From: Microcoleus sp. LEGE 07076
GTDB taxonomy: Bacteria > Cyanobacteriota > Cyanobacteriia > Cyanobacteriales > Microcoleaceae
NCBI RefSeq assembly: GCF_015207455.1
Contig: NZ_JADEWV010000056.1
Span: forward strand, 1-33,660
Direction: 5' to 3'
DNA: 33,660 nucleotides
The notes under the pieces were generated by a model. The model had not been told where the DNA came from, searched no databases, and was given only the letters and a program-made list of their open reading frames with translations. A program made the position numbers and the translations under genes. This document shows positions 1-29,655 of the stretch, piece after piece. Position 1 is the first letter of the stretch. Every line of letters starts with the position of its first letter.

Positions 1-1287
1 CAGTTTATTCAGGGGGATTACTGCGATCTTAAGACCAGGTGTGAAGCCTGTCCCTTGACCAGCTCTGTCAGCAAAAGTGGAGCTACAGGCAATCCCTGGA
101 AAGACTCAAAGCTTGACAAGGAAGGTAAGGTTAGAAATCCGCGCCGTAGTGCTGGCGATATTCAAATTACAGCATTACCAGAGTTGAAAGTTGCTAGACC
201 TTGGTACAGTGGGGTAGACTCAACAGTTTTACAGCAGAATGTTAAACGATTAGATACTGCTTACAAAAATTTCTTTGAAGGCAGAGGTTTCCCCAAGTTC
301 AAGAATCGCAGTAATTTTAAATCCTTCACCTGCGTGATGGGAATAAAATTGCAAGGTAATAAAATTTACTTACCCAAGCTGGGTTGGATTCGGTTTTACA
401 ACTCTCGCTCAATCCCAGATGGGTTTACTGTCAAGGCTTGCACAGTTAGAAAACGTCAGAATGGCTGGTATGTCTCCATCATAATTGAGGATAAATCCGT
501 ACCCGAATATAGCGTTCAACCTGTGGGAGAGCATCCCAAAGTAATAGGCTGTGACTTGGGAATTACTAAACTGGTTCATTTTTCTGATGGCTACCAAGTT
601 GAAAATCCCAAGTTTTCAACGAACAAAAAAGCTAAGCGGACTCTCAAAATCAGACAGAGACGAGTTAGCCGTAAAGTTAAGGGTAGTAAAAATCGCAAAA
701 AAGCGGCTGTCCGGGTTGGAAGGTTTCATCAAAAAGTTAGTGATAAGCGTCAAGCATATCAATGGAAAGTTGCCAATAAGATTGTGTCTCGCAACGTTGA
801 TGTAATTGCCCTAGAAGACTTAAATGTATCTGGAATGATGCGTCGTTGTCAAGTAAAAATCGACGGGAAAACAGGGAGATTCCTTAAGAATGGGCAATCA
901 AGAAAAAAGGGCTTAAACCGCTCTATCTCTGATGCAGGTTGGGGCGAGTTAATTTCAAAGGTTGAGTATCTAGCTGTGAAGCAGGGCCAAGCCGTAATTA
1001 AAGTTAATCCCAAGCACTCTAGCCAAGAATGCAGGAATTGTGGCCAGATCGAAAAATCAAACAGAGATGGCGAAAAGTTCATCTGTGTTGAATGTGGCTA
1101 TCACGAACACGCCGACATTGGTGCGGCTAAAACTATCAGAGATAGAGCTTTGGAAATAGTACGTGGGGACTCCGCAAAACTTGGCGCTAGTCGCCTAAAC
1201 GCCCAAAAGATATCAGTGCGCTCTACGAGCAAACGCACTGAGTTTGGGAACCCTAGAAATAGGGATATTAAGAAGGCAATTTCTTAA
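1..1287 (+). CDS. tnpB: IS200/IS605-family TnpB (OrfB), 5' end outside window
   Basis: This is the RNA-guided RuvC-type nuclease of the IS200/IS605 family. The reading frame is open from base 1, so the true start lies upstream; an in-frame TTG at 55 is not a convincing start. All three RuvC acidic residues are visible: Asp in CDLGITKL (codon at 553), Glu in ALEDLNVSG (codon at 814) and Asp in HADIGAAKT (codon at 1114). A zinc finger made of CRNCG and CVECG lies just before the last Asp. The N-terminal part has the usual FFEGRGFPKFK motif. Nothing visible is broken, so the nuclease may be functional. No tnpA is seen here, but it could lie to the left. The element's right end follows at once (1288-1320), and the sequence after that belongs to a disrupted histidine kinase. 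Identification is firm. Confidence 0.95.
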   Translation, partial: QFIQGDYCDLKTRCEACPLTSSVSKSGATGNPWKDSKLDKEGKVRNPRRSAGDIQITALPELKVARPWYSGVDSTVLQQNVKRLDTAYKNFFEGRGFPKFKNRSNFKSFTCVMGIKLQGNKIYLPKLGWIRFYNSRSIPDGFTVKACTVRKRQNGWYVSIIIEDKSVPEYSVQPVGEHPKVIGCDLGITKLVHFSDGYQVENPKFSTNKKAKRTLKIRQRRVSRKVKGSKNRKKAAVRVGRFHQKVSDKRQAYQWKVANKIVSRNVDVIALEDLNVSGMMRRCQVKIDGKTGRFLKNGQSRKKGLNRSISDAGWGELISKVEYLAVKQGQAVIKVNPKHSSQECRNCGQIEKSNRDGEKFICVECGYHEHADIGAAKTIRDRALEIVRGDSAKLGASRLNAQKISVRSTSKRTEFGNPRNRDIKKAIS

Positions 1288-1320
1288 GAATCTCAGTCGC
1301 TTCAGCGTTGAGAGTGTCAA
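1288..1320 (+). mobile_element. Right end of the IS200/IS605 element and probable omega-RNA scaffold end
   Basis: Just after the tnpB stop an imperfect hairpin is formed by CTCAGTCGC (1292-1300) and GCGTTGAG (1305-1312). It is followed by GTGTCAA, ending at 1320. In IS200/IS605 elements a subterminal hairpin and a TCAA-type cleavage tetranucleotide mark the right end, and the end of the omega-RNA scaffold coincides with it. The placement is supported by host-gene sequence (a kinase N-box) starting immediately after 1320. The exact cleavage point is inferred. Confidence 0.7.
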
Positions 1321-1531
1321 GAATATTTGTTCTAATGCGATTGATGCTTTAGAACAGATAGCGGTGCAGCAGCATTCAGTCAAAGACTGTTGGGGGAAAA
1401 ACTTACCCGATCGCTTGCAATATACCGATTGCTAACCGCTAAGAATTCGCATCCGCACGCTTGTGGTTGACGGCCAGTGGGTGCAGATTCACATTGCTGA
1501 TAATCGCAGCGGCATAGATGCTTACGATTAA
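1321..1531 (+). pseudogene. 3' remnant of a histidine kinase gene interrupted by the IS element
   Basis: Translated in the frame beginning near 1319, this stretch gives an N-box (NICSNAIDALEQ), then an in-frame TAA at 1433-1435. After that, still in the same frame, it gives IRIRTLVVDGQWVQIHIADNRSGI. That second part resembles the strand before the G1 box of a HATPase_c domain, but the usual DNGSGI reads DNRSGI. The frame ends at 1529-1531, with no F or G2 box. It therefore looks like the decayed catalytic-domain fragment of a cyanobacterial multi-sensor histidine kinase. Its upstream part should lie beyond the IS element, outside the window. The stop codon, the Gly-to-Arg change and the missing C-terminus all argue that it no longer works. 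Confidence 0.75.
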
Positions 1532-1703
1532 AATTCCCTTAAAATCAAAACCTCAGCCAGCAACTTGCTCTGAAAAATTTTTGGTAAAGCTGTAAAATTG
1601 GGAAGCTGCCGTTTTTGTAAATCAACTTCTGGAAAGGGCTCTCCGGCCCGCCCCACAAAAACAAGACGATCGTTCCATTTAGTATAATTTGCAACCAAAC
1701 ATT

Positions 1704-4700
1704 ATGTGGCAAATAGTCAAAGATATCTTTTCTCCCACTCAGTATATGCCGCACGGTCAGTGCTATCTGTGGCAAACGCCTTTGGTGTGGCTGCACGTAA
1801 CCGGCGACTTTTTAATTGCGATCGCCTACTATTCAATTCCGGCGATGCTGATTTATTTTGTTTTTAAGCGACGCGACGTTCCTTTTTTAGGAATATTTGG
1901 TTTATTTGGTGCATTTATTATTCTTTGCGGTACAGGTCACTTGCTAGAAATTTGGACGCTGTGGCATTCTGCTTATTGGCTGTCGGGGATTGAAAAAGCA
2001 ATTACTGCCCTCGTTTCCTGCTACACTGCCGGATCGATGGTAACGCTGCTACCCCAATTTTTATCCTTAAAAACTCCTGAAGAGTTAGAAGCAATTAATC
2101 TCAAGTTGCAGCGGGAAATTACCGTGCGTGAAGATGCAGAATTAGCTCTGCGCTGCGCGTATGAAGATTTAGAAATTAAAGTGCAAGAGCGTACCGCACA
2201 GTTGACAGAAACCAACAGTTGCTTAGAAAGGGAAGCTCGCGACCGCCAGCAAGCGGAGTTAAAATTGCGCTCAGTTACCGAGCGCTTGCAATATTTGTTG
2301 GCTACTACTCCTGCGGTTATTTTTAGTCGCCAATTAAAAGAAAATTATGAGGTAACATTTGTCAGCGAAAATATTGTTTCGCTGATTGGCTACGAAGCGC
2401 GAGAATTTGTTGATGGTTCCCTCGATTGGCACAGCATAATTCACCCCGAAGATCGAGAAAATGTAGATATTGCATTTGCTCAGATATTGGAAAAAGAATT
2501 GATTTCCTACGAATACCGCGAACTGCACAAAGACGGTAGTTATCGCTGGATTTACGATGAGGTAAAATTGGTCAAAAATGCTGTTGGCATACCTGTAGAG
2601 TGTGTTGGTTATGCAGTAGATATTACTGCTCGCAAACAGGCAGAAGCAGCTTTGATGCAGCAACTAAAAAGAGAGCGACTGGTGAATTCCATTCAAGAGC
2701 GGATTCGCTCTTCTCTCGATCTCGACGAAGTTCTGACAATGGCTGTTGAAGAAGTGCGCCTGTTTTTGTCAACTGACAGGACAGTTATTTACCGTTTCAA
2801 CCCTGATTGGAGCGGATTTGTGGCAGTCGAATCGGTAGCAGCAGGTGTGATGCCGATTGCGGGAATCGATATTAACGATCCTTGTTTTCGCGAAAGGTAT
2901 ATTTCTGTTTATCGGCAGGGTCGTGTTCGGGCGATGGACGATATTTACACTGCTGGTATTTCCGAGTGCCACATTAATTTACTCGCAGAATTGGAAATTA
3001 AAGCTAACCTCGTGGTTCCTATTTTGCAAGGGGAAAATTTATGGGGCTTGCTAATTGCTCATCACTGTCGCAGTCAAAAACATTGGAACTCTTCTGAGAT
3101 AGAATCTCTCAAGCAAATTTCTGTGCAGCTAGCAATTGCTATCCAGCAATGCACGCTATTTGAACAAGCCCAAACAGAAATTGCCGATCGCAAGTTGGCA
3201 GAAGCAGCGCTGCAAAAAGCTGTCGTGGTTGCCGATGCTGCTAACCTTGCCAAAAGCGAATTCCTATCTTCTATGAGCCACGAATTGCGGACTCCCCTGA
3301 ATGCTATTCTGGGATTTAGTCAGGTGATGGTGCGCGATTCATCCTTAAAAAATGAACACCAGCAACACCTAGAAATTATTAATCGCGCCGGAGAACATTT
3401 GCTTTCGCTAATTAATGATATTTTGGAAATGTCCAAAATTGAAGCTGGCAGAAGTCAGCTTAACGAAAGCAGTTTTAATTTGATTCGCCTGCTAGAAACT
3501 TTAGAAGAGATGTTCCGATTAAAAGCTAAATCTAAGAGATTGCAGCTCAAGTTTGAAGTAGCCCAGAGCGTTCCTCATTTTGTGAATGGAGATGAGGGTA
3601 AATTGCGCCAAGTTTTGATTAATATGGTAGGAAATGCCATTAAGTTTACAGAAAGGGGTAGCGTTACCTTGCGAGTGAAAAACAAGCTAGAAGAAAATTG
3701 GGCGGCTGAAAATGCAGAGTTGAGCAGCCAACAAACAAAAACCGCCGACTGGGGTTCGGAAAAGTCCGCGCCTGCTGATTTTGATTGTGTAGACACGAAT
3801 TCTATTCACCCGGTATCTTTACGCCTTCAGTTTGAAGTTCAAGATACTGGCGCGGGAATTGCCAAAGAAGAAATGAATAAGTTGTTTAAACCATTCGAGC
3901 AAACAAAATCAGGTTATAAATCGCAACAGGGTACTGGACTAGGTTTACCAATTAGTCGCAAATTTGTACAAATGATGGGAGGAGATATTGTTGTCTCCAG
4001 TACACCTGATTTGGGAAGTACGTTTTCATTTGATATTCAAATGTCCCTTGCTGCTGCCACCGAGATTCAAATGCTTAAACCGCATAAAAAAGTGATTGGT
4101 TTAGCACCAGATCAACCAGAATACCGGATTTTGGTGGTTGACGATCGCGCCGATAATTGTCTAGTCATAGATAGGTTACTGTCACCGTTAGGCATTTTAG
4201 TGCGAGAAGCTAGAAATGGTCAAGAAGCTATTGCTGTATGGGAGGATTGGCAACCGCACTTGATTTGGATGGATATGCAGATGCCTGTGATGAATGGTTA
4301 TGAAGCAACCAGACAAATCAAATCTCGTCCTCTCGGAAAAGAAACGGTAATTGTGGCTCTGACTGCTAGCGCTTTTGAAGAGGAAAGAGCAACTATTTTA
4401 GCGGCAGGATGCGATGATTTTATGCGTAAACCGTTTGAGGCAAAAATGTTGTTCGCTGTTATAGAGAAATATTTAGGGGTGCGCTATATTTACGAGGAAC
4501 CTGTTGATACAATCCTCGAAAATGAAAGCGAGTTGAGTGGAGTGGCTAGCTGTCCATCGGTAGAAATACAAATGGGTAAAATGCCTAGTGAGTGGCTAGA
4601 TAATATCAATGAGGCTGCTCATGAATGCTACGACGATAAAATTCTGCGGTTGATTGAGGAAATGCCTGGGGAGTTTGCTGGGGCTGCAAAAGTTTTAACT

Positions 4701-4775
4701 GATTTAGCACATGATTTCCTGTTTGATGATATTATAGAGCTAGCAAAATCGGCGGTTACGGCACGTGTGTGTTAG
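1704..4775 (+). CDS. Hybrid histidine kinase with ethylene-binding-like membrane domain, PAS, DXCF cyanobacteriochrome GAF, HisKA/HATPase and receiver
   Basis: A membrane sensor kinase of about 1023 residues. The N-terminus has three hydrophobic segments and keeps Asp35, Tyr42, Pro46, Cys75 and His79. Their spacing is the same as D25, Y32, P36, C65 and H69 of the plant ethylene receptor ETR1. A PAS domain (about 2290-2635) follows. The GAF domain (about 2670-3155) has DPCF (Cys394) and, 28 residues on, the CH pair Cys422-His423; these are the two cysteines expected in a DXCF cyanobacteriochrome. Then come HisKA (SHELRTPLN, His526), HATPase_c (N-box, DTGAGI, GTGLGLPIS) and a receiver with phospho-acceptor Asp857 in WMDMQMP. 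A tail of about 90 residues resembles tails of other cyanobacterial hybrid kinases; no HPt motif is seen. Order up to the kinase matches Synechocystis Slr1212 (SynEtr1/UirS), which binds ethylene and senses UV; the added receiver is a difference. ATG 1704 was chosen over TTG 1689; neither has a clear ribosome site. The next gene starts 38 bp downstream. Confidence 0.93.
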   Translation: MWQIVKDIFSPTQYMPHGQCYLWQTPLVWLHVTGDFLIAIAYYSIPAMLIYFVFKRRDVPFLGIFGLFGAFIILCGTGHLLEIWTLWHSAYWLSGIEKAITALVSCYTAGSMVTLLPQFLSLKTPEELEAINLKLQREITVREDAELALRCAYEDLEIKVQERTAQLTETNSCLEREARDRQQAELKLRSVTERLQYLLATTPAVIFSRQLKENYEVTFVSENIVSLIGYEAREFVDGSLDWHSIIHPEDRENVDIAFAQILEKELISYEYRELHKDGSYRWIYDEVKLVKNAVGIPVECVGYAVDITARKQAEAALMQQLKRERLVNSIQERIRSSLDLDEVLTMAVEEVRLFLSTDRTVIYRFNPDWSGFVAVESVAAGVMPIAGIDINDPCFRERYISVYRQGRVRAMDDIYTAGISECHINLLAELEIKANLVVPILQGENLWGLLIAHHCRSQKHWNSSEIESLKQISVQLAIAIQQCTLFEQAQTEIADRKLAEAALQKAVVVADAANLAKSEFLSSMSHELRTPLNAILGFSQVMVRDSSLKNEHQQHLEIINRAGEHLLSLINDILEMSKIEAGRSQLNESSFNLIRLLETLEEMFRLKAKSKRLQLKFEVAQSVPHFVNGDEGKLRQVLINMVGNAIKFTERGSVTLRVKNKLEENWAAENAELSSQQTKTADWGSEKSAPADFDCVDTNSIHPVSLRLQFEVQDTGAGIAKEEMNKLFKPFEQTKSGYKSQQGTGLGLPISRKFVQMMGGDIVVSSTPDLGSTFSFDIQMSLAAATEIQMLKPHKKVIGLAPDQPEYRILVVDDRADNCLVIDRLLSPLGILVREARNGQEAIAVWEDWQPHLIWMDMQMPVMNGYEATRQIKSRPLGKETVIVALTASAFEEERATILAAGCDDFMRKPFEAKMLFAVIEKYLGVRYIYEEPVDTILENESELSGVASCPSVEIQMGKMPSEWLDNINEAAHECYDDKILRLIEEMPGEFAGAAKVLTDLAHDFLFDDIIELAKSAVTARVC

Positions 4776-4813: not shown

Positions 4814-6043
4814 GTGAGCGATCGCATGAACATCAATCAGCCCCCTACAATTTCAGCCACGATTTTAGTAGTTGACGATCTACCAGATAACGTGCGGCTT
4901 CTATCTACAATCCTAACTGAAAACGGCTATCAGGTTCGCAAAGCGTTGAACGGAAAAAGAGCTCTGGCGACGGTGCAGGAGTTTCCGCCGGCTCTAATTC
5001 TGTTGGACGTAATGATGCCAGATATGAATGGATATGAGGTGTGTACACAGTTGAAAGCTTCACCAAAAACCAGTTTGATTCCAGTAATTTTTTTAAGCGC
5101 ATTAGATGATGCTTCAGATAAGGTGAAGGCTTTCGATGTGGGAGCTGTTGATTATATTACTAAACCTTTTCAAGGTAAAGAAGTATTGGCACGAGTGGCA
5201 AATCAGTTAATCATTCAAAATCAGCAACGACTGCTGCAAGAGCAAACGAAGCAATTAGAACAGTTTGTTGAGCGATTGCAAAACGAAATTCAAGAGCGGC
5301 AGGGGGTTGAGTTGGCTTTACGGCTGGCTCAAAAAAAATCGGATCATTTATTGCTGAATATTTTACCGGCTGCGATTGTTGAGAAGTTGAAAAAAGGCGA
5401 GGCTTCTGTTGCTGAGAGATTTGAGTCAGCAACAGTCCTCTTTGCTGATATTGTGGATTTTACGTCTCTTGCTGCGAGAATTTCACCGCTAGAATTGGTG
5501 AATTTTCTAAATAAGATTTTTTCAAAGTTTGACGAATTAACTGAAAAACACGGTTTGGAAAAAATTAAAACAATTGGAGATGCTTATATGGTAGCGGGGG
5601 GCTTGCCTGTGCCGAGGGCAGATCATGCAGAGGCGATCGCGAATATGGCTTTGGATATGCAAAATGCGATCGTTAATTTTCAAACAGACATGGGCGAACT
5701 ATTTCAAATTCGGATTGGCATTAATACAGGCCCAGTAGTTGCTGGCGTAATTGGCACTAAAAAATTTAGCTATGACTTGTGGGGAGATACTGTTAATGTT
5801 GCTTCTAGGATGGAATTGCAGGGATTGCCGGGATATATTCAAGTGACTGCTGCTATTTACGAGCAGTTAAAAGATCGGTATGTGTTTGAGGAAAGAGGTG
5901 CGATCGCGGTTAAAGGTAAAGGAGAGATTATTACCTATTGGCTCAAGGCTAAAAAAGATGGTGCGGCGGTTGAAACCGATTTTTGTCAAGCGAATTCCAC
6001 TCATAGCGAACGAAGAGATTACCCAAATACCTCACTTTTTTAA
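4814..6043 (+). CDS. Receiver domain-class III adenylate cyclase response regulator
   Basis: A soluble protein of about 409 residues. An N-terminal receiver has the acidic pair VVDD and acceptor Asp in LILLDVMMPDMNGYE. A short coiled-coil linker (about 5215-5335) leads to a class III cyclase domain (about 5420-5955). Both metal-binding Asp residues are present: Asp212 in LFADIVDFT and Asp256 in TIGDAY. The base-selecting positions are Lys252 (KTIGD) and the Asp of YDLWGDTVN, the Lys/Asp pair of adenylate cyclases; guanylate cyclases have Glu/Cys there. Transition-state Asn and Arg are also present (TVNVASR). It should make cAMP under control of phosphorylation. It lies 38 bp behind the hybrid kinase in the same direction, so that kinase is the obvious phosphodonor; this is inference. 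The start is GTG 4814, or possibly ATG 4826; neither has a clear ribosome site. Confidence 0.93.
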   Translation: MSDRMNINQPPTISATILVVDDLPDNVRLLSTILTENGYQVRKALNGKRALATVQEFPPALILLDVMMPDMNGYEVCTQLKASPKTSLIPVIFLSALDDASDKVKAFDVGAVDYITKPFQGKEVLARVANQLIIQNQQRLLQEQTKQLEQFVERLQNEIQERQGVELALRLAQKKSDHLLLNILPAAIVEKLKKGEASVAERFESATVLFADIVDFTSLAARISPLELVNFLNKIFSKFDELTEKHGLEKIKTIGDAYMVAGGLPVPRADHAEAIANMALDMQNAIVNFQTDMGELFQIRIGINTGPVVAGVIGTKKFSYDLWGDTVNVASRMELQGLPGYIQVTAAIYEQLKDRYVFEERGAIAVKGKGEIITYWLKAKKDGAAVETDFCQANSTHSERRDYPNTSLF

Positions 6044-6092: not shown

Positions 6093-7373
6093 TTAAAAAA
6101 TGAAAATAATTTGCAGTTGCCAATTTGTATTTTCCCGGATGATTTCAATGCGCTCGATAAACTCGCGAAAGTAGAACCTGCGTTCGGATTCTGATAAATC
6201 CAGCCAAAATTGGGGAAGAGAAACTGTTTGGGCTATTTCTCGCAAATTTACTGGGGGGAGTTGCGCTAATTTGCTTTGCTGTTCGGCAATTTCGGTGCGA
6301 ATTTTGTAGGCTCTCAATTCGGCCGTTTCGGTGTCGAAAATGCCGCTTTCAATCAGGGCTGGAAGTTGATCTATGATTTCTTGTTTCGAGGCGATCGCCC
6401 TGACAATTCCTGCTTTAATTCCGTTCATGTCCGGCATCTGCAACCGCGCTACGGCATCGGGCAAATCCCGACAAATTCCGGCGATGGTTAATTGCAATAC
6501 TTCATCGTAGGAAATGCCGCTGCATTTAGGTTGAGACAGACAGTTAATCGGTCGCAAATAAAGGTATTCTTTTTGTTTGCGGTAGGAGGTGACTTTGGCA
6601 ACTGTCATGGGGGATTTGCACTCGGCACAAATTGCTAAACCTGCGAGGGAACGCGGGGCGCTGGCGCTGCGGGGAGAAAGGCGGCGGTTGCGACGCAGCA
6701 ACCGATCTATTTGGGCGGCTTCTTCTCTGGAAATAATCGGGATGTGGGTGTTAGAAATTACTTGGCCGTTTTGATATTCTAAATCGCCTCGGTAGGCGGG
6801 ATTTGTCAGCCAGCGGCGGGCTGTGCTCACGGAGATTTTTTTGTTGTATTTTTTGGCTAAATGACGCACGGAACCGCGCAGGGAACCGTAGATTAGAAAG
6901 TGTTCAAAAAAGTCTTTGACGGCGGGGGAAGCGGTTTTATCGATCGTATATTTGTCTTTGCCGCGCCGGTAGCCGTAGGGGGCTTTTCCGGGAGGGGGAA
7001 GGGATTTGATGCGGTTGCGGGCGTGTCCTTTGCAAATGCTGCGGCTGTGTTGGCTGCGCTGGACTTCTGCGAGGATTTGCAGTAAGTTTTTGCGGTTTGG
7101 CGGTTCTGTTTCTGCTTGTACGATGATTTCGACACCGAGGGTTTCGAGTTGGGCGAGGTGCGCGCACACTTGCTGGAGTGTGTCGCCGAGTTCTTCAAAG
7201 CGCTGAATTAATAAGTATTTGACTGGTTGTGTTTGGCAGTCTTTTAGGAGTTGTTGCAGTTGTTGTCGCCCTCCTAAGTCTTGATAGATGCGATCGACCT
7301 CCCGGCCCCAAATTTCGGCTGCTGGCGCTGGTTCTAGCAGCGGTTCGCTGTAAGAGTAGGCGATGATTTGCAT
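6093..7373 (-). CDS. Serine-recombinase-family protein (cyanobacterial XisF-like), N-terminal catalytic region atypical
   Basis: A protein of 426 residues. The middle is a Recombinase domain (GKAPYGYRRGKDKYTID, then RRWLTNPAYRGDL), followed by a zinc ribbon (CAECKSP ... CLSQPKC) and a C-terminal helical part. This is the layout of large serine recombinases such as XisF, which excises the fdxN element in heterocyst formers. The N-terminus reads IIAYSYSEPLLEP where resolvases have Tyr-x-Arg-x-Ser. The Arg is Tyr, and the Ser position is Glu, with a Ser one residue earlier. I recall the same N-terminus in homologues across cyanobacteria, so this may be a conserved non-canonical group and not a broken gene. 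It begins 3 bp after the stop of the VOC-fold gene, which suggests co-transcription. Function is not established. Confidence 0.8.
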   Translation of the reverse strand: MQIIAYSYSEPLLEPAPAAEIWGREVDRIYQDLGGRQQLQQLLKDCQTQPVKYLLIQRFEELGDTLQQVCAHLAQLETLGVEIIVQAETEPPNRKNLLQILAEVQRSQHSRSICKGHARNRIKSLPPPGKAPYGYRRGKDKYTIDKTASPAVKDFFEHFLIYGSLRGSVRHLAKKYNKKISVSTARRWLTNPAYRGDLEYQNGQVISNTHIPIISREEAAQIDRLLRRNRRLSPRSASAPRSLAGLAICAECKSPMTVAKVTSYRKQKEYLYLRPINCLSQPKCSGISYDEVLQLTIAGICRDLPDAVARLQMPDMNGIKAGIVRAIASKQEIIDQLPALIESGIFDTETAELRAYKIRTEIAEQQSKLAQLPPVNLREIAQTVSLPQFWLDLSESERRFYFREFIERIEIIRENTNWQLQIIFIF

Positions 7374-13618: not shown

Positions 13619-13907
13619 GATCGCACATATATATTAAAAATACGATATTAATACCTAAGTATAATTACACTGGCAATTCATTGATTTTGTGTTGAATTAT
13701 CAAATTCGTGCTGGCTGTTACGCAATATTACTTAATTAATTTTTGTATCTTTATCAAACCTTTAATAATTTAGTGTTTTTCTAGAAAAAAGTTTATATAT
13801 ATTCTCTAAAAAACTGTTATGGTTGCTACAAGCTTCAAAAATAGTTTCGGATGCAAGTCGCGAAACCGGGGAATTGTTGTCTTTTTTTACCCCCAATCAG
13901 GTGTATT
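13619..13907 (+). promoter_or_regulatory. AT-rich leader/promoter region of the giant gene
   Basis: A low-GC stretch with no coding signal, containing TATAAT at 13660-13665 and TATATATT near 13793-13801. No good -35 hexamer is seen at the expected distance from either. One of them probably drives the giant gene, but the start site cannot be fixed from sequence. If the first is used, the leader is about 235 bases. Confidence 0.35.
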
Positions 13908-16900
13908 ATGCCCAATTTAAATAATCGAGTTTCAGTAAGTGCGATCGCCTTTATCGACACTAAAGTACCAAACTATCAAAGTTTGATTGCCGGAGTGAAA
14001 CCGGGTACGGAAGTAGTGGTTTTGGATGGGAACCAAGATGCGATCGACCAAATTACTGCAGTTTTACGCGATCGAACCAATATAGACAGCATTCACATCG
14101 TTTCTCACGGTGCTCCCGGTAGCCTGCAACTGGGCGGCGGTAGCTTGAGTTTAGATGATATTGAGGGCGATCGGCATTCTCTACAGAAGTGGTTTGCGCC
14201 ACCAACTGAGTCGATCGGTCAAAATCGACCTAATATCCTACTCTACGGGTGCTCAGTAGCAGCAGGCGAGACAGGTAAAGCATTTGTCAAACGCTTGAGT
14301 GAGTTAACTGGCGCTAGTGTTGCCGCATCCAAAAACCTCACCGGAAGCGCGGCAAAAGGCGGCGACTGGGAACTAGAAATCAGAACAGGAGAAATCAAAA
14401 CACCGTTAGTCTTTGAACCCGAAGTATTGGCAGGTTACGAGTACGTTTTGAATAGTTTTGGTGCGGCGACTAATTTTGGTGCGGGGACAAGTCCTGCGGG
14501 CATCGCTACGGGGGATTTTGACTTCGATGGCAAACCCGATCTAGCTGTAACAAACCAAGGGTCTAATAATGTTTCTATCCTGTTAGGAAATGGTACAGGG
14601 GGTTTTGGGACAGCCACCAACTTTGCCGTAGGTTCAAGTCCGCGTTTCGTCACATCTGGACTGTTCAACAACGATAATTTCCCCGACTTAGCAGTAGTAA
14701 ATAGTAGTAATATCTCAATTCTGTTAGGAAATAGCACTGGCGGTTTCGGTGCAGCTACCAATTTCAATGTGGGTAACACTCCACTTTCAATAGGTGTCGG
14801 AAACTTCAACGCCGACAATTTCCTCGATTTAGCAGTGGTAAATGGGAACCCTCAAGGTGCTTCTGGTAGCGTCTCAATTTTGCTCGGAAATGGTGCTGGC
14901 AGCTTTAGTGCTGCCACTAATTTCAATGTTGGTTCGATTCCGGCTGCCGTTGTTGTCGGCCACTTTAACGCTGACAATTACCTAGACTTAGCCGTTGCCA
15001 ACAGCCTCTCTAGTAATGTCTCGATTCTGCTAGGAAATAGCACCGGCGGATTTGGTGCAGCTACTAATTTTGGGGCTGGGCAAAATCCAAATTCGATCGC
15101 CACTGGGGACTTTAACGGAGACAATCTCCTCGACTTAGCCACAGCTAACAACGGTTCTAACAATGTCTCAATTCTATTAGGAAATGGCACTGGTGGCTTT
15201 GGCGCGGCCACTGGGTTTAGCGCGGGGACAGGGCTTTCCGGCATTGTCGCGAAAGACTTAAACGGAGACGGGAAACTGGACTTAGCAGTAGGAGGTACCA
15301 GCGGCGCTGCAATTTTAGTAGGCAACGGCACTGGCGGTTTTAGTGCACCCATTAACTTTGCTGCGGGGACAAGTCCAACTTCCATTATTTCAGGCAACTT
15401 TAATGCTGACACTCTCCCAGATTTGGCAGTAACGAATAACGGTTCAGGCAATGTTTCAATTCTGCTAAATACACCTAATACGGTAAGTTTTGACACTTCC
15501 AAATACAGCAATAGCGTAGGTGTTAATGAAGAGGCTACCGACACAGTAATTAATGTCACCCTGAGTCTGGGCGGCGGCACTCCCCTCAGCGATGTAGTTG
15601 TACCAATTGTCATCGATCCCAGCAGCACTGCTACTCAAGGTGCCGATTACACAATTTCACCTACTACTGTTACTTTCCCCGCCGGTGCGACTGGTGCTGC
15701 ACTCACTCAAACTGTGGCAGTAACTATCAAAGCTGACAATATCGTTGACAGTAACGAACAGTTAATTCTCAATTTAGGACAGATTACTGGCGGTGTTGCG
15801 GGCGGCACGAGTAAAGTGGTATTGTCAATCTTGGACAGGAATAGTTCTTATACTATTGCCACCAATACTCCCACCGTTACCGAAGGTAATTCTGGCGCTA
15901 CTCCCGCCTCATTTACGATTACTCGCAACGGTAGCACGGAACTTTGGAGTACGGTAGATTATGCCATTACTGGCACTGCGACCAACGGCACTGATTACAA
16001 CAATATAGGCGGCACTTCTGGGGCAAATGCTGCTACTGGCAAAATCAGTTTTGCAGCGGGCGAAACATCTAAAACTATTACTTTGGATGTGTTGGGAGAT
16101 GGCAGTATAGAACCGAATGAAACTGTTGCCATTACTTTATCAAATCCTGTTTCACCGGGCGGCGCGCCGATAATTACTACGGCTACCGCTACCACAACGA
16201 TTACTAATGATGACACTGCCGGCTTTACGGTAAATCCCACAGCATTATCAACCACAGAAACAGGTGGCACAGCAGAATTCACAGTCAAACTCAACGCTCA
16301 ACCAACTGCTAACGTTACTATTGCTTTGAGCAGTGACAATGTTGCCGAAGGAACTGTTTCAACTAATAGCTTAACTTTCACACCCGCTAACTACAATCAA
16401 CCGCAAACAATCACAGTGAGTGGTGTTGACGATTTGGTAGCTGATGGCCCTCAACCTTACAAAATAGTCACGGCTGCTGCTGTCAGTACCGATGCTAATT
16501 TCAATAACCTCGATCCTGATGATGTCGCCGTCACCAACAACGACAATGAAACTCCGGGAATTACGGTGAATCCGACGGCGGGCTTGACTACGGGCGAAGA
16601 TGGCAGTAAGGCTAACTTTACTGTGGTTCTGAATACTCAGCCGACTGCTAATGTGACTATCGGTTTGAACAGTGACAATGTTGCTGAGGGAACAGTTTCG
16701 ACTAATAGTTTAACATTCACTGCTGCTAACTGGAATGTGCCGCAACCGGTGACAGTAACTGGAGTTAATGACAGTATTGCTGACGGCGATATTGAGTACA
16801 AAATTGTCACGGCTGCTGCTGTTAGTACAGATGCGAATTACAGCAACCGACAGGTAGCGGATGTTGGTATTACCAATCAGGACAATGATACGGTTGGTGT

Positions 16901-19900
16901 TTCTGTTAGTGTTGCCGAAACGACTGCGACAGAAGGCGGTGCAAACGGTACGTACACTTTAGCGCTGAAATCGCAGCCGATCGCCCCTGTAACTCTCACT
17001 CTCACAACAGATAACCAGATAGGGGCGATCGCCCCTATCACTTTCACACCCAATAATTGGAATGTCGCTCAACCCGTTACTGTGATAGCTGTTGACGATG
17101 CGGTTGTCGAAGGTTCACACAGCGGGAAAATTACTCACAGTGCGAGCAGCACTGATGCTAAGTATAATGTGCTGGTGGTTCCAGGGGTGACAGTGGCGAT
17201 CGCAGATAACGATGTAGCGCCACCGCCGCCAACTCCGACTCCGACAACATCTGTCACTCCGACTCCAACTCCGACAACATCTGTCACTCCGACTCCCACT
17301 CCGACGACATCTGTCACTCCGACTCCGACTCCAACTCCGACGCCCATATCTCCGATATTTGACAACTCTGGGAAACGTAGCGCTCGACCGATATCGATCG
17401 ATCGACCCCTATCGATCGATCTGCCGCTAGGTAACGGAACTGTCGATCGAATTACTGATCTTAACGATCCCACGATAAGTTTTTCCCAAGCTACTTACCA
17501 AGTCAAGGAAAGTGCCACAGAAGTCGTTAAGCAAGAAATTACTCTCACTCGCACCGGGGATCTAAGCAAAACTTCCAGGGCGTACCTACAACCTGTTACT
17601 GGTGGTTCAGCGACTGTGGGAAAAGATTGGAACTTTGCCTCCAATTACTCTGGTCAACTTACCTTTAACCCAGGCGAAGATACCAAAACTTTCACAGTTG
17701 ATATCTTATCGGATGGTGAAGCTGAGGGAACAGAAGAAATCGCGTTTCGGATCGCTAGTGCGGATAATGCGAATATTGGCACTCAAAGCTCAGCCACGTT
17801 GCAAATTTTGGATAAAGTTTTCACCAACGAACTCGCCGATCTGAAGATACCTGGTTTTGTCGGCCCTAATGCCTGGGGAGACTTCGACAATGACGGCGAT
17901 TTGGATCTGTTGGTGATGGAAGGAGGTAGTGTACAAAACAACTCATTTTCTTTTCCCCGATCGCAATACATCCCGAAAGTGTACAGCAACGAAGGTGATC
18001 AAGGCTTTAAACCAGTTGATATAGGCCTGCCTATCGTTTACGGAGGTGTCTTTAATGAAAATGGGAAGGAGCATAATGCCAAACCTTCTGCTACATGGGG
18101 AGACAGCGACAATGATGGCGACCTCGATATCTTGCTCACAGGCGTAATTGATACTCCTGCACCAGACCCTTTCTCCATCCCCCCTGAACCCTACGTCCCC
18201 AGTTTGCCTTACACCCCCATCACTAGACTGTACCGGAACCAAAGGACTGATAGCACTCTTCCCTATTACCCAACCTCGATCGACCCCACTAAATTTACTC
18301 TAGACAGGAGGGTAAAGCTGCCTGGTATTTTCAACGGTTCCGCAGCTTGGGGAGACTACAACAACGATGGCAGAAAGGATCTCGTACTCACAGGTGACAC
18401 GAGTTCAGGCTACATCGCCAAAGTGTTCCGCAACGACCTCACTGCCTTTAACTCCGGCAGTATCTTGTACTACGCCCTTACCTTTGAGGAGGAGACTGGG
18501 GCTAGCTTGCCCGGTGTTATTGGCAATGCGGCCTGGGGAGACTACAACAACGACGGCCAACAGGACATCTTGCTGGCAGGCGATACCGGTTTAAAAAGCG
18601 ACAACGGTTCAGCAATTTACGTCGCAAAGTTGTATCGCAACACTGGCAATGGCTTTACTCAAGAAAGCAATTCACTGCTGCAAAATCCAAATTTCATAAT
18701 TGCTAACGAAGCTATTACTTACGGTGCATGGGGAGACTCCAACAGCGATGGCAAACTAGATATCTTGCTTACAGGTGGATCGTCGCGTCCAAATGAATGG
18801 AACTACGGCCGTACCAGATTGCTCGGAAACAATAGCTATGGGGATACTACTAGCTTTCAGGAAGCTTATTACCAATTCGGGTATGGTGGTAGTCCCGGTG
18901 CTTGGGGAGACTACGACAACAATGGCAAGCTGGATATCCTTGTGACAGAAGTGGGTGGTAATCCGGGTTCCAGTGTCGCCCAAGTTTACGAACAAAATGA
19001 TGCTGGCACCAATTTTGAACTCCTCAAGGATGCAGGGCTGCCTGATAATGTTGCCAGCCCGAGTTCTTCGGGAGACTACGACAAGGACGGCAGACTAGAT
19101 ATTGCACTCACGACAAGAGATAATTCACCCGGTAGCAGTGGCAGCTTTGTCAAAATCTACCGCAACAATACCCCTAATGCGAACACGCCACCCTCTGCAC
19201 CTCAAGGTTCCAATTACCCTTGGATTACTCCCGAAGGAGTTATCTTAAGTTTGCCCGGAGGACAGGGGAATCCGATCGACGCTCAAACTCCAAATCAGGG
19301 TTTAAGCTATAACCTACAAGTTTGGACTACTCGTCCCAATCCCTCCTACGGTGGCGACCCTATTAAAGAGTACATTGTTGGCCCGATGTCCCTGGATGAT
19401 GGAACTCGGCAAGTAGTGCAGTTGGGAAATGTCCATCAAGCCAACCCCAACAGCCCCAGCAATTCCTACTCGCCTGGTTGGCTGTTAAAACCAGATTACT
19501 TAATCCCTGGACAAACTTATAACTGGAGTGTACAGGCGATCGACGGTGCTTGGGCGGGTTCACCGTTTGTTGAAGGACAAAGTTTTGTCGCCCCCTATAT
19601 CCAACCAACCCTCACTATCACTGCTACAGATCCCAATGCGGCCGAAACAAGTTGGGATGAACCCCCAAATCCAGGAAAATTCACCATTACCCGTACTGGT
19701 GGCAACCTAGCTGATCCGCAGGATGTTTACTACAGGTTCAAGGGGTTCGATGTGTCAGATGGATCGTATAGTAATCAAAACAACCTTGCTCTACCAGGTC
19801 CTGATTACGAATTAGTTTCAGATTCCGAACCCCCTCAGTTATTACCCACTAACCCGTCCTACGGCTATAACAACTTTGTCACCATTCCAGCGGGTCAACG

Positions 19901-21881
19901 CAGCGTCAACATGGTTGTTAATGTCCGCGATGACAGCCAAGTAGAGGGCGACGAAAAAGTAGTTATCACCTTAGAAAATACTCCCTACCCCCAAAAGATA
20001 GGCGAGTCATCTACTGCTACTGTGACGATCGCAGACAACGACCCCAACAACCCGCCGAAAATCAACTACGGCCCCGATACAACCCCGTGGCATCACGAGT
20101 TCAAGACAGTAAGCAATAACCCATTAACATTCGAGTACCAATTTCCGTCGAACACTTTCACTGACCCCGATCCAGGTGACACGCTTACCTACACAGCAAC
20201 TCTGATGGACGGAAGTCCCCTGCCAAGTTGGCTTACCTTCAATCCAGATACCCGTACACTCAGTGGCACAAGTCCCATACCGCAGGAGTTCAGGATTAAG
20301 TTAACAGCAACAGACAGGGCTGGCGCTACTGTCAGTGACGACGATACGGGTCCATATGAGGGTAAGGGTATGTTGCTGCAATTTAGCAGCACCGGCGTAG
20401 TCATTGACGGCTACATCTCCGGTGCAACCCTCTTCCTAGACGCCAACAAAAACGGTATCCTCGATACCAACGAACCATCCACAATTACCGATACAGGCGG
20501 TAAATTCGATCTCAACATCCCCTTCGAGATTTTCGACACCAACAAAAACGGAGAAATCGACCCATCAGAAGGCAATATAGTAGCCACAGGAGGCACTGAC
20601 ACCGCCACCGGCTTACCCCTAGAAACACCAGTCACCGCACCGCCAGATTCCACAGTTGTCACCCTCCTAACCAGCTTAGTCGCCGACTTAACCGACAAAG
20701 GAACTGCACCAGAATCAGCACAATCTTTAGTCAAAGCCGCCCTTGGACTCCCCGCTGATATTGACCTAACTAGCTTAGATCCGATCGCAGCCACCAACCA
20801 AAATTTACCAGGCGGAGTCCAAGTCTTATCCGCAATGGTGAAAGTCCAAAACTTCATCACCCAAACCAGCGCTTTGATTGACGGCGCTTCCAGTGCACTC
20901 AATACCGATATTGTCAAAGCTGTTGTCAGTTCAATTACCGATCGAATTCAATCCAGTACAATCTTAAACCTCAGCAACGCAGCAGCCTTAGAACCAATCA
21001 TTCAGCAAGCAGCCGCAAAAATTCAGCAAATAGACCCCAGTTTCAACAGTCAACAAATCACCCAAATTACCTCGCAAGCCGCGACAGTAATGGCTACCGC
21101 AAATCAACGCATTGATAGCGCTGTTTCCAACCCAACAGCAACATCAATTCCTGAATCAGTTGCCCGCGTTCAACAAGTAGCCTTGGGCCCGACAACTCAA
21201 GATTTCAAAGCAGTTGGTACGGGAAACAAACCAATTTCCCTGGTAGTTGCTGAAAATACCGGTGCTGCTTTAGATAGCCGAATTCAAGCAGTAGTTTTAC
21301 CAGTTGGCCTTGCGACTCCCGTTCTCACCGGCGATGCAGATTTGGGCAGCAATTCCCCGAATGCAATTCTCGGTACAAATGGCGACGATATCCTGATTGG
21401 CGACAGCGCGGATAATGTGTTGATGGGCATGAGGGGCAATGATTCCCTCGATGGAACTCTCGGAAATGACACTGTTTTCGGCGGCAAAGGTAGCGATACT
21501 TTGCTCGGAAGTGGCGGTGATGATGCCTTGTTTGGCAATCGCGGCGCTGACATTTTGAACGGTGATGATGGCAACGATCTGCTTTACGGAGGTAAGGGAG
21601 ATGATTTGCTGAATGGCGGTTTGGGAAGTGATACTTTGACGGGAGGAATGGGAGTAGATAAATTCTTGCTTTCTGTCAATTCCGGTACTGATACGATCGC
21701 AGATTTTGAACTCGGTCAAGACTTGTTAGTATTGGGTAGCGGGCTGGATTTCTCGCAGTTGGCAATTAGTCAAGATAGCGGGGCAACTTTAATCCGGTTT
21801 GCCCAAACTGGGGAGATTTTAGCTTCTCTGGGCGGTGTTTCTGCTATCCGTATTAGCGCTGCTAATTTCGGATTAATTTAA
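13908..21881 (+). CDS. Giant secreted adhesin-like protein: DUF4347, two FG-GAP propellers, Calx-beta repeats, RTX C-terminus
   Basis: About 2657 residues. In order: DUF4347 (13930-14430) with [10 protein letters not shown] (His67) and LLYGCSVA (Cys115); seven FG-GAP/VCBS repeats (14456-15470, e.g. [14 protein letters not shown]); five Calx-beta or related Ig-like repeats (15480-17215), the third and fourth nearly alike (NPTA...[24 protein letters not shown]); a Thr-Pro linker (17218-17352); a sixth Calx-beta (17470-17815); seven more FG-GAP repeats of the form AWGDYNNDG (17830-19170); an Ig/FN3-like region; a seventh Calx-beta (19601-20040); a cadherin-like Ig domain (20050-20340); an SdrD-like segment with DANKNGILD (20395-20590); a helical stretch; and 11 in-register RTX nonapeptides (21350-21665) before a type-I-secretion-like tail. 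Two sets of seven blades fit two beta-propellers. It is probably a calcium-dependent surface or matrix adhesin; no transporter genes are nearby. ATG 13908 was chosen over ATG 13851, whose 19 extra residues do not fit the DUF4347 start. Confidence 0.93.
17231..17343 (+). repeat. In-frame 30-bp tandem repeats encoding a Thr-Pro linker
   Basis: Three near-identical 30-bp units, each ending ACATCTGTC, encode the ten-residue unit [10 protein letters not shown], and a degenerate fourth follows. They separate the first Calx-beta block from the second half of the giant protein. Such arrays change length easily by slippage. Just after, 17391-17422 has runs of GATC overlapping repeats. Confidence 0.85.
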
Positions 21882-27512: not shown

Positions 27513-27696
27513 AAATGGGGCATCAATAATCGGCATTATTGACAAGTTAAGATGCAAGTAGACGTGCATAAATAAACGGTTAAACCTGAAAAGCTAATTT
27601 CCTTGCTGTAAGGAACTTATGGCAGATCGTATTATTCTTTTAATTATGACCGCCTCGTAGCACGCTTTGTCCAATAAGGTTGAAAAAAGAATTATC

Positions 27697-29655
27697 ATGC
27701 CCAAATTCTTTAAGAAATTTCATCAATTGGGAGAGAAACCTTGGAGTTGGAAAAACTTAACTAATTCCTTCCCCTTCGCTGACTTGCAACCTCTGGCGAT
27801 TACCTGGATCGTCGTGACAGGAACTCTTTTAGGAGTGAGGCATTTAGGTTGGTTGCAGCCATTGGAATTAAAGGCTTTTGACGTGATGGTGCAGTTGCGC
27901 CCCGATGCAGGTGCTGACCCTAGATTACTGGTAGTAAAAATCACAGAACAGGACATTCGGACTTTTAATAAATGGCCAATTTCCGATCGCGTTTTAGCAA
28001 AAGCGATCGCCGAATTAGCGCGTCTGGAACCCGCCGTTATCGGTCTGGATATCATTCGCGATATCCCCTACGAACCGGGAAATGCAGAATTGACCGCTCA
28101 ATTCAAAAACCCCAAAGTTATCGCCATTACCTCCATCGGTGACTCGGAGCGCGAGCGAGCTGGGCCGCCTCCCAACATACCCAAAAAACAGATAGGATTT
28201 AGCGATTTGATCCTCGATCCAGACGGCATAGTTCGCCGCAATTTTATTTTTACTTTTCATGAAAACTCGACTCTGAATTCATGGGCAATGCGGTTGGCAT
28301 ATAACTATTTTGACACCAAGAAAATAGAAACAATAATTACCGAAAACAACGAAATAAAAATTGGAAATACTGTTTTCCCGCGGCTGCGGCCGCACTCGGG
28401 TGGGTATCAGACAATTAATACTCAAGGCTATCAAATCGTGCTGAATTACCGAGGGCCTGAAAATGTCGCAAATACCGTGACACTAACTCAAGTTTTGTCG
28501 GGAAAACTTGACCCCAAATTGGTGAAAGATAAAATAGTCTTGATCGGGGTGAGTGCCCCAACAGTAAAAGATATCTTTTCTACTCCTTACAGCGCTACTG
28601 TCAGCGGAAACCGCCTGATGCCTGGAGTATTGATTCACGCCAGCGCAACTAGCCAAATTATCAGCGCAGTTTTAGACGGTAAAGGGCTATTTTGGTTTTG
28701 GGATGAATGGCAAGAAATGCTTTGGATTGCTGTTTGGGGAGGAGTTGGCGGCTGTTTAGCTTGGCGGTTAGAAAATACGCTCAGTTTCACGGTTAGCGCG
28801 ATCGCACTTGGCGGCATATTGTGGGGATTCACATTTTTTCTATTCACTCAACAGGGGTGGATACCTGTGACAGGGCCGACTCTAGCATTGGCGATCGTCC
28901 CAGCAGTTGTCATCACATACAAGTACCAACAGTCAAGACAGCAGCAAGAAATTGTAATGAAACTTTTAGGACAGCAAACTTCACCGGCGATCGCCAATGC
29001 TTTGTGGAAAGAGCGCGTCCATCTCCTGCAGTCCGGGCTATTGCCAGGGCAAAGAGTAACTGCTACAATGATCGTGACTGACTTGCAAGGTTTTAGCACA
29101 ATTTCTGAAAAATTACCCCCAGAAGTGGTAATGCCTTGGTTAAATGAATATTTATCAGCAATGGCCGAGGAAGTGCAAAAATATCAAGGCGTGATTAATA
29201 AATTTACAGGAGATGGAATGCTGGCAGTATTTGGCGTGCCAATTCCCCGCACAACTCCCGCAGAAATTGCCCAAGATGCTCGCATGGCAGTGTCTTGCTG
29301 TCTAGCTATAAAATCGCGCTTGCCAGCACTGAATCAAAGTTGGATCGATCGCGGTTTACCGCAGGCAAAAATGCGAGTCGGAATTTTTACAGGGCCGATC
29401 GTGGTGGGTAGTTTGGGTGGCAAAACCCGTTTAGAATATGGAGTAATCGGCGATAGTGTAAATATCGCTTCTCGCCTAGAAAGCTGCGAAAAACATCGGC
29501 AAGAAGACACCTGCCGGATCTTGATCGGCGAAGAAACTTTGGTGCATCTTGAAGGAAAATTTGAGGTAGAATCTTGGGGAGCTTTACCTCTAAAAGGCAG
29601 AGAGCAAAAAGTAAATGTATACCGCGTATTGGGAGAAAAAATCTTGGGAAAGTAA
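27697..29655 (+). CDS. CHASE2-domain class III nucleotide cyclase
   Basis: A 652-residue membrane protein. After one N-terminal transmembrane helix comes a CHASE2 extracytoplasmic sensor (about 27870-28650; FDVMVQLRP, then LVVKITEQDIRTFNKWPISDRVLAKAI). Three helices follow (about 28680-28920), then a class III cyclase domain (about 29050-29630). Metal-binding Asp residues are in MIVTDLQGFS and KFTGDGM. The Lys of NKFTGD is the adenine-selecting one. The second selecting position is Gly (EYGVIGDSVN), where Thr or Asp is usual. Transition-state Asn and Arg are present (SVNIASR). It is most likely an adenylate cyclase that responds to an external cue. ATG 27697 was preferred to TTG 27667. The DUF928 gene follows after 39 bp, a neighbourhood I recall from other cyanobacteria. 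Confidence 0.9.
   Translation: MPKFFKKFHQLGEKPWSWKNLTNSFPFADLQPLAITWIVVTGTLLGVRHLGWLQPLELKAFDVMVQLRPDAGADPRLLVVKITEQDIRTFNKWPISDRVLAKAIAELARLEPAVIGLDIIRDIPYEPGNAELTAQFKNPKVIAITSIGDSERERAGPPPNIPKKQIGFSDLILDPDGIVRRNFIFTFHENSTLNSWAMRLAYNYFDTKKIETIITENNEIKIGNTVFPRLRPHSGGYQTINTQGYQIVLNYRGPENVANTVTLTQVLSGKLDPKLVKDKIVLIGVSAPTVKDIFSTPYSATVSGNRLMPGVLIHASATSQIISAVLDGKGLFWFWDEWQEMLWIAVWGGVGGCLAWRLENTLSFTVSAIALGGILWGFTFFLFTQQGWIPVTGPTLALAIVPAVVITYKYQQSRQQQEIVMKLLGQQTSPAIANALWKERVHLLQSGLLPGQRVTATMIVTDLQGFSTISEKLPPEVVMPWLNEYLSAMAEEVQKYQGVINKFTGDGMLAVFGVPIPRTTPAEIAQDARMAVSCCLAIKSRLPALNQSWIDRGLPQAKMRVGIFTGPIVVGSLGGKTRLEYGVIGDSVNIASRLESCEKHRQEDTCRILIGEETLVHLEGKFEVESWGALPLKGREQKVNVYRVLGEKILGK

Follow-up and report, generated by a model that had tools for sequence, protein, structure and literature searches.

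Conserved pairing of a putative ethylene- and light-sensing hybrid histidine kinase with a predicted receiver-adenylate cyclase in Microcoleus and related cyanobacteria

Background

The plant ethylene receptor ETR1 carries a kinase and a receiver, and is not known to have a photosensory GAF domain or a cyclase partner. To our knowledge, the route from ethylene to response has been worked out for few bacterial receptors. The present study deals with a hybrid sensor histidine kinase gene (positions 1704 to 4775, forward strand) and the receiver-cyclase gene next to it (positions 4814 to 6043, forward strand) of Microcoleus sp. LEGE 07076. Both are located on contig NZ_JADEWV010000056.1 (C14), analysed over its whole length of 33,660 bases (referred to below as the window) and part of a genome of 6.8 Mb, the nearest database relatives being labelled Microcoleus and Tychonema.

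Several described systems resemble this locus in part; papers are cited here and below for the excerpts of their text that were available. GeiEtr2 of Geitlerinema sp. PCC 7105 resembles the window kinase in its ethylene domain, PAS/PAC, GAF, and kinase domains, and C-terminal receiver (1025 versus 1023 amino acids), with all seven ethylene residues reported present, as in the window kinase, a likeness that rests on the published description (PMC6682694). It differs in the genes grouped with it, the reported products being a starch phosphorylase and a protein with a diguanylate cyclase domain, while no adenylate cyclase is named in those excerpts (PMC6682694). AzoEtr1 of Azospirillum brasilense, likewise a receptor for ethylene, is encoded directly upstream of a slightly overlapping response-regulator gene, but this regulator comprises 135 amino acids without a recognised output domain, and light sensing is not mentioned in the excerpts (PMC11819568). 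In SynEtr1/UirS (Slr1212) of Synechocystis PCC 6803, by its description, an ethylene domain precedes a cyanobacteriochrome and a kinase, and the protein both binds ethylene and shows UV/green photoconversion; however, its histidine kinase is C-terminal, with no fused receiver described in the excerpts, and it acts via UirR and LsiR (PATAN-CheY) (PMC5812497, PMC6682694). In contrast, the window kinase possesses a fused receiver (residues 809-920) and the gene that follows it encodes a receiver-cyclase. As for kinase-cyclase pairs, the cyclase CyaC of Anabaena PCC 7120 has further domains of its own. The phytochrome-like kinase AphC purportedly phosphorylates and activates CyaC, which resembles the window pair, but this system involves far-red light, and an ethylene domain is not mentioned in the excerpts (PMC4284465). 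A literature search of titles and beginnings of abstracts found no description of an adenylate cyclase that partners an ethylene receptor, nor do the excerpts of PMC6682694, PMC6944256, PMC4284465, PMC5812497, PMC11819568, and PMC7700396 describe one.

Results and discussion

Conserved gene pair

The receiver-cyclase gene begins 38 bp past the kinase stop codon on the same strand, and encodes a receiver (residues 17-128, with D65; Pfam PF00072) fused to a class III nucleotide cyclase (residues 200-378; Pfam PF00211, 223.7 bits). The cyclase domain aligned to a solved adenylate cyclase, adenylate cyclase 9, and contains K252 and D321 of the adenylate type, D212 and D256 as metal residues, N328, and R332, positions that in adenylate cyclases serve as the metal aspartates, the substrate lysine and aspartate, and the catalytic asparagine and arginine. 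The gene product is a predicted adenylate cyclase, with cyclic AMP (cAMP) as its probable product.

Orthologous loci were compared among the window and 25 fetched relatives (n = 26; loci and genomes are denoted by L and G numbers). An ethylene-domain match at E 1e-20 was present in 56 genomes of a family sample of 61 related genomes; in 24 genomes besides that of the window, identity of the domain was 81-94% across a stretch from residue 1 or 2 to residue 139, and in G007 it was 85% over residues 1-88, all 25 of these loci entering the pair count. In all 26 loci, a same-strand receiver-cyclase gene follows the kinase gene, with a gap of -7 to 183 bp, most junctions being short and two of them overlapping. 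Named records of Microcoleus, Tychonema, and Kamptonema carry the pair. The two-gene kinase/receiver-cyclase unit is thus conserved. Key residues of the kinase, receiver, and cyclase are kept throughout the orthologues wherever readable. D212, D256, K252, D321, N328, and R332 occur in all 25 rows that are readable at these positions, L065, the remaining row, being truncated by the end of its contig; cyclase residue K369 is replaced by Thr in L080. Two of the 25 relatives are damaged, namely L080 (G007), with the ethylene domain in a separate short open reading frame (ORF), and L070 (G012), which has an internal stop in the match and an ORF beginning past the first residues, before the site. 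The less similar loci L081-L086, L091, and L092, which stand outside the 26-locus count, are without the pair. In the named loci L128 and L129, the ethylene domain reaches 85-86% identity with the window domain, but the build is different and no receiver gene adjoins.

The kinase gene starts with ATG at position 1704, a TTG being in frame at 1689; the codon equivalent to 1704 is the first in-frame start in several orthologues (e.g. L056, L059, L060, and L073). The encoded protein of 1023 amino acids consists of an ETR1_N membrane domain (residues 27-122, positions 1782-2069; Pfam PF25487, E 3.3e-39), a PAS_3 domain (residues 218-303, positions 2355-2612), a DXCF cyanobacteriochrome GAF domain (residues 339-480, positions 2718-3143), a histidine kinase core (positions 3249-4040) with HisKA (residues 516-582; H526, codon 3279-3281), N-box (N644), and HATPase (residues 707-779), a fused Response_reg receiver (residues 809-920, positions 4128-4463; D857, codon 4272-4274), and a C-terminal helical tail (residues 935-1023, positions 4506-4772), all on the forward strand.

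A preliminary description of this sequence had regarded the C-terminal receiver as an addition to the SynEtr1/UirS order, to be sought in other genomes, and had deduced a changed output from it. This receiver is present but not new, as the same order was described for GeiEtr2 in 2019 (PMC6682694). In addition, the same Pfam set was found in many of the best 120 of 5513 homologues (8000 candidates scored), some with an extra GAF domain. Since GeiEtr2 and many homologues share this order or Pfam set, the domain architecture was rejected as a novelty. A changed output is likely right, albeit on a different basis, namely the adjoining receiver-adenylate cyclase gene, which had been missed. The kinase architecture is already known, and the receiver-cyclase partner is the interesting part.

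We consider it rather probable that a dual ethylene/light hybrid kinase sets cAMP through the adjoining receiver-cyclase, because of the site residues discussed below, the alignment with TePixJ, the 26/26 conserved pairs, the receivers adjoining other hybrid kinases, the fusions of ethylene domain and cyclase, and the precedent of AphC and CyaC. Ethylene would be read by an ETR1-type (copper) site and light by a bilin-carrying GAF domain, the two jointly setting the activity of one membrane histidine kinase; phosphate would pass from H526 to D857 of the fused receiver and/or to D65 of the receiver-cyclase, and ethylene and light together might raise or lower cAMP.

Ethylene site

The membrane domain scored 133.5 bits against the ETR1_N family (cut-off 27). 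Aligned with the ETR1 N-terminus, 45 of 92 residues were identical, with a score of 203, the highest-scoring of 200 shuffles reaching 58. As to the site residues, D35, Y42, I45, P46, I72, C75, and H79 align with D25, Y32, I35, P36, I62, C65, and H69 of ETR1, which we take to be its seven ethylene-binding positions, gapless from D35 to H79, and K98 aligns with ETR1 K91 following a three-residue gap. The exact ETR1 spacing that the preliminary description had seen in D35, Y42, P46, C75, and H79 was hence confirmed, the residues being equivalent in the alignment and their numbers correct if the ATG at 1704 is taken as codon 1. In ETR1, Asp25, Cys65, and His69 make up the copper site (PMC12643061), and the functional bacterial receptor AzoEtr1 has D35, C75, H79, and K98, with numbers identical to those of the window kinase (PMC11819568). 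All seven residues are present in 24 of the 25 rows with the domain, the exception being L072 (P replaced by A); K98 is present in 24/25 rows as well, with Gln in L076. Conservation of these residues across orthologues argues against a chance resemblance to the ETR1-type ethylene site, and the kinase may well bind ethylene. A sequence search for a solved structure of the membrane domain yielded none, its one match being a light-harvesting protein (E 0.075).

Alternatively, the membrane domain may not be an ethylene sensor here, and may instead bind copper or another small hydrocarbon, or merely anchor the light sensor. The full set of photosensor residues in the same kinase would fit such a role, ethylene binding in this clade being read from sequence. 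Yet, ethylene binding is documented for SynEtr1 and Geitlerinema cells (PMC6682694), and both the near-invariance of the seven residues and the residue numbers shared with AzoEtr1 plead against this alternative, making it improbable.

Light site

In the GAF domain, C394 (DPCF; codon 2883-2885) and C422 (ECH; codon 2967-2969) are 28 residues apart. The TePixJ-type arrangement ascribed to them in the preliminary description held, as the domain aligned gapless with TePixJ (3vv4) across both cysteines (E 4.9e-34, over residues 18-164 of the GAF segment); the best-scoring match in the Protein Data Bank (PDB) was 6oap, with a Tyr where the DXCF Cys would be. Among the orthologues, the DXCF Cys occurs in 25/26, the canonical Cys in 26/26, and the canonical His in 25/26, the diverged GAF domain of L076 being without both the DXCF Cys and the canonical His. 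The GAF domain is predicted to bind a bilin. TePixJ is a blue/green photoreceptor. UirS, which is dual-linked too, is UV/green (PMC5812497), so that the colour of the photocycle is not readable from the GAF sequence. Hence, of the dual gas and violet/blue light sensor proposed earlier, the predicted dual sensing is well supported by the conserved sites and the SynEtr1/UirS precedent, whereas violet/blue was a class-level guess.

That the GAF domain would be a photosensor in name only, or sense something else, leaving an ethylene-only cAMP system, is highly improbable. Such a system would accommodate L076, which retains the gene pair, as well as the occurrence of the DXCF...CH pair at the window spacing in only 15 of the best 80 named ethylene-domain loci (nine of the window type, the fragment L130, and L129, L151, L158, L162, and L189); it agrees poorly with the retention of both cysteines in 25/26 orthologues and the gapless fit to TePixJ.

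Kinase tail and phosphotransfer route

The helical tail of about 90 residues (935-1023) is common to 28 aligned cyanobacterial hybrid kinases and matches no Pfam family above the cut-off. A role as a histidine phosphotransfer (Hpt) domain found no support at the sequence level, as no conserved His occurs in the 28 tails, Hpt is absent from the Pfam families that they matched (E 1), and comparison with PDB sequences gave no convincing match (best E 0.023, a designed protein). An AlphaFold2 model of receiver plus tail (28 sequences; mean pLDDT 84.1, pTM 0.57) predicted a helical tail, the structural comparison of this model covering the receiver portion. Since no Hpt domain was recognised in the tail, direct transfer from H526 to D65 is favoured, with the fused receiver as a gate or sink, the alternative being a separate Hpt protein.

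A fused receiver often implies a multistep relay. It is in keeping with this that the kinase might be a dual sensor with another main target, be it a separate Hpt protein or a free response regulator such as one that steers pili, and that the cyclase might be an independently controlled neighbour. Synechocystis UirS does work via UirR and LsiR, without a cyclase in the excerpts (PMC5812497), and the Microcoleus genome contains many similar receivers. This explanation is nevertheless unlikely in view of the 26/26 conserved pairs, with their mostly short and in two cases overlapping junctions, and of the related receivers that adjoin ethylene hybrid kinases in other families.

Exchange of output enzymes

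The best 80 named ethylene-domain loci fell into 47 hybrid ethylene kinases for which downstream sequence could be read, 24 non-hybrid proteins with context, and nine loci without downstream sequence; domains were called by BLAST against reference domains, and a receiver gene was counted when located at most 250 bp downstream. For 37 of the 47 hybrid kinases (28/38 without the nine of the window type), the next gene encodes a related receiver, versus 5 of the 24 non-hybrid proteins. The outputs after the 47 hybrids were a cyclase in 11 (the nine of the window type, L157, and L171), GGDEF in 6, a histidine kinase in 15, a receiver alone in 5, and none in 10, so that a cyclase for every ethylene hybrid kinase is ruled out. 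A Pfam scan of ten chosen receiver proteins (nine direct neighbours and, in L160, the second gene downstream) gave HATPase (kinase) outputs in five, GGDEF-EAL in three, and a cyclase in two. L152 and L154 have a receiver-only gene and, downstream of it, a receiver-cyclase gene.

In a receiver tree of 45 rows, with one very long branch, weak inner support, and near-copies, the output labels were interspersed, with 12 label changes (minimum 3) versus a mean of 20.6 upon shuffling. A single origin of the cyclase output was rejected, as the starred branches of this tree force at least four changes of the adenylate cyclase (AC) label. The exchange of output enzymes thus appears repeated, given these AC changes, yet not free, given the 12 changes against 20.6. 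The receiver of the window cyclase is 64% identical to that of a cyclase of its own genome, and up to 62-63% identical to receivers partnering GGDEF and kinase outputs elsewhere.

The own genome contains further pairs of hybrid kinase and receiver-output genes, with a cyclase output in L233 and the second pair of L234, and a kinase output in the first pair of L234, L236, and L241. In L235 (2002-9489), a hybrid kinase, a receiver-kinase-receiver, and an abutting receiver-kinase form an array, possibly a longer relay. A 938-amino-acid ethylene-domain protein of this genome (L088, G000:C264) lies in a receiver/kinase cluster that ends beside a class III cyclase gene on the opposite strand. Thirteen cNMP-binding matches were found in the genome, and these proteins could possibly read cAMP.

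Several observations weigh against control of the cyclase by the ethylene/light kinase. Firstly, every step of the proposed mechanism rests on sequence. Secondly, 10 of the 47 hybrid kinases have no adjoining receiver gene and the commonest output is a kinase (15/47) instead of a cyclase, counts that do not equal independent events, as the named loci are related and partly the same records as the family genomes. Thirdly, the genome is crowded with kinases and similar receivers, with 222 matches to the window kinase and 43 receiver matches at E 1e-18 (the query itself included), of which the ten nearest others are 55-65% identical, so that cross-talk is plausible. Lastly, the inputs are separable from the output, since the L076 orthologue has lost the DXCF Cys and K98 and keeps its cyclase partner.

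Direct fusions of ethylene domain and cyclase

In G056 (L086:7007-8269, reverse strand), a protein of 420 amino acids consists of ETR1_N and a class III cyclase only, and the database cluster P0121 (415 amino acids, among 120 listed of 3330 matches) is 93% identical to it, with the same two domains. Widespread fusion is unsupported, as it was seen only in L086 and P0121, and among the matches listed for 386 genomes of the phylum, none reached from the ethylene-domain start through the cyclase. In L083-L085, an ethylene-domain protein of 876-879 amino acids has a cyclase gene 419-538 bp on; in L144, a named counterpart, the cyclase is 82% identical to that of the L086 fusion. As the identity of the fusion-type cyclases with the cyclase of the window pair is only about 30%, ethylene domains are linked to at least two kinds of cyclase. 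Other proteins combine an ethylene domain, PAS, and GGDEF-EAL (L172:7001-10960 and L182:5710-8001).

Upstream and other genes of the window

Upstream of the kinase gene, a tandem gene for another ethylene-domain kinase has left a decayed 3' remnant at positions 1316-1592 (forward strand), which contains an in-frame TAA and matches the upstream protein of L073 at 81-84% identity over residues 371-441 and at 91% over residues 492-513. In 12 of the 25 relatives, a second complete ethylene-domain protein of 513-551 amino acids is encoded 50-109 bp upstream; kinase domains were found in the one such protein scanned (L073). In L066, the contig ends within a piece of an ethylene domain, and some other contigs end short of the upstream position. 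This gene being intact in 12/25 relatives and a remnant in the window, part of the clade carries a three-gene unit, of which the first gene was lost in the lineage of the window. The remnant abuts a TnpB-type gene (positions 55-1287, forward strand; Pfam OrfB_IS605 and Cas12f1-like_TNB) at the contig edge, its frame open to base 1.

On the other side, a convergent gene (positions 6093-7373, reverse strand) encodes a recombinase of 426 amino acids; this neighbour is conserved, 18 of the 25 relatives having ORFs of 426-427 amino acids at 82-91% identity. Furthermore, the window encodes a protein of 2676 amino acids (positions 13851-21881, forward strand) with DUF4347, FG-GAP, Calx-beta, and RTX calcium-binding repeats, which is probably surface-located or secreted, and a second class III cyclase, with a CHASE2 domain (positions 27667-29655, forward strand).

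Conclusions

The conserved gene pair points to a possible direct input of a plant-hormone gas and of light to cAMP, a classic messenger of cells. More broadly, and tentatively, with the odds somewhat short of even, ethylene and short-wavelength light integrated on one kinase may set cAMP in filamentous cyanobacteria, ethylene-to-cyclic-nucleotide signalling having been assembled more than once (kinase plus receiver-cyclase in the Microcoleus group, other cyclases elsewhere, and a direct fusion), within a module of which the output enzyme was repeatedly exchanged while input and receiver stayed constant. The fusion of ethylene domain and cyclase would offer a compact system for asking how a catalytic domain is moved by ethylene binding. 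If the proposed control of the cyclase is true, a conserved two-gene unit with a measurable cAMP output would make an ethylene pathway testable in vitro and in strains of Microcoleus, Tychonema, and Kamptonema. Moreover, as cAMP is reported to affect motility, including gliding, in several cyanobacteria (PMC4284465), a plant-hormone gas, the colour of light, and gliding motility would be joined.

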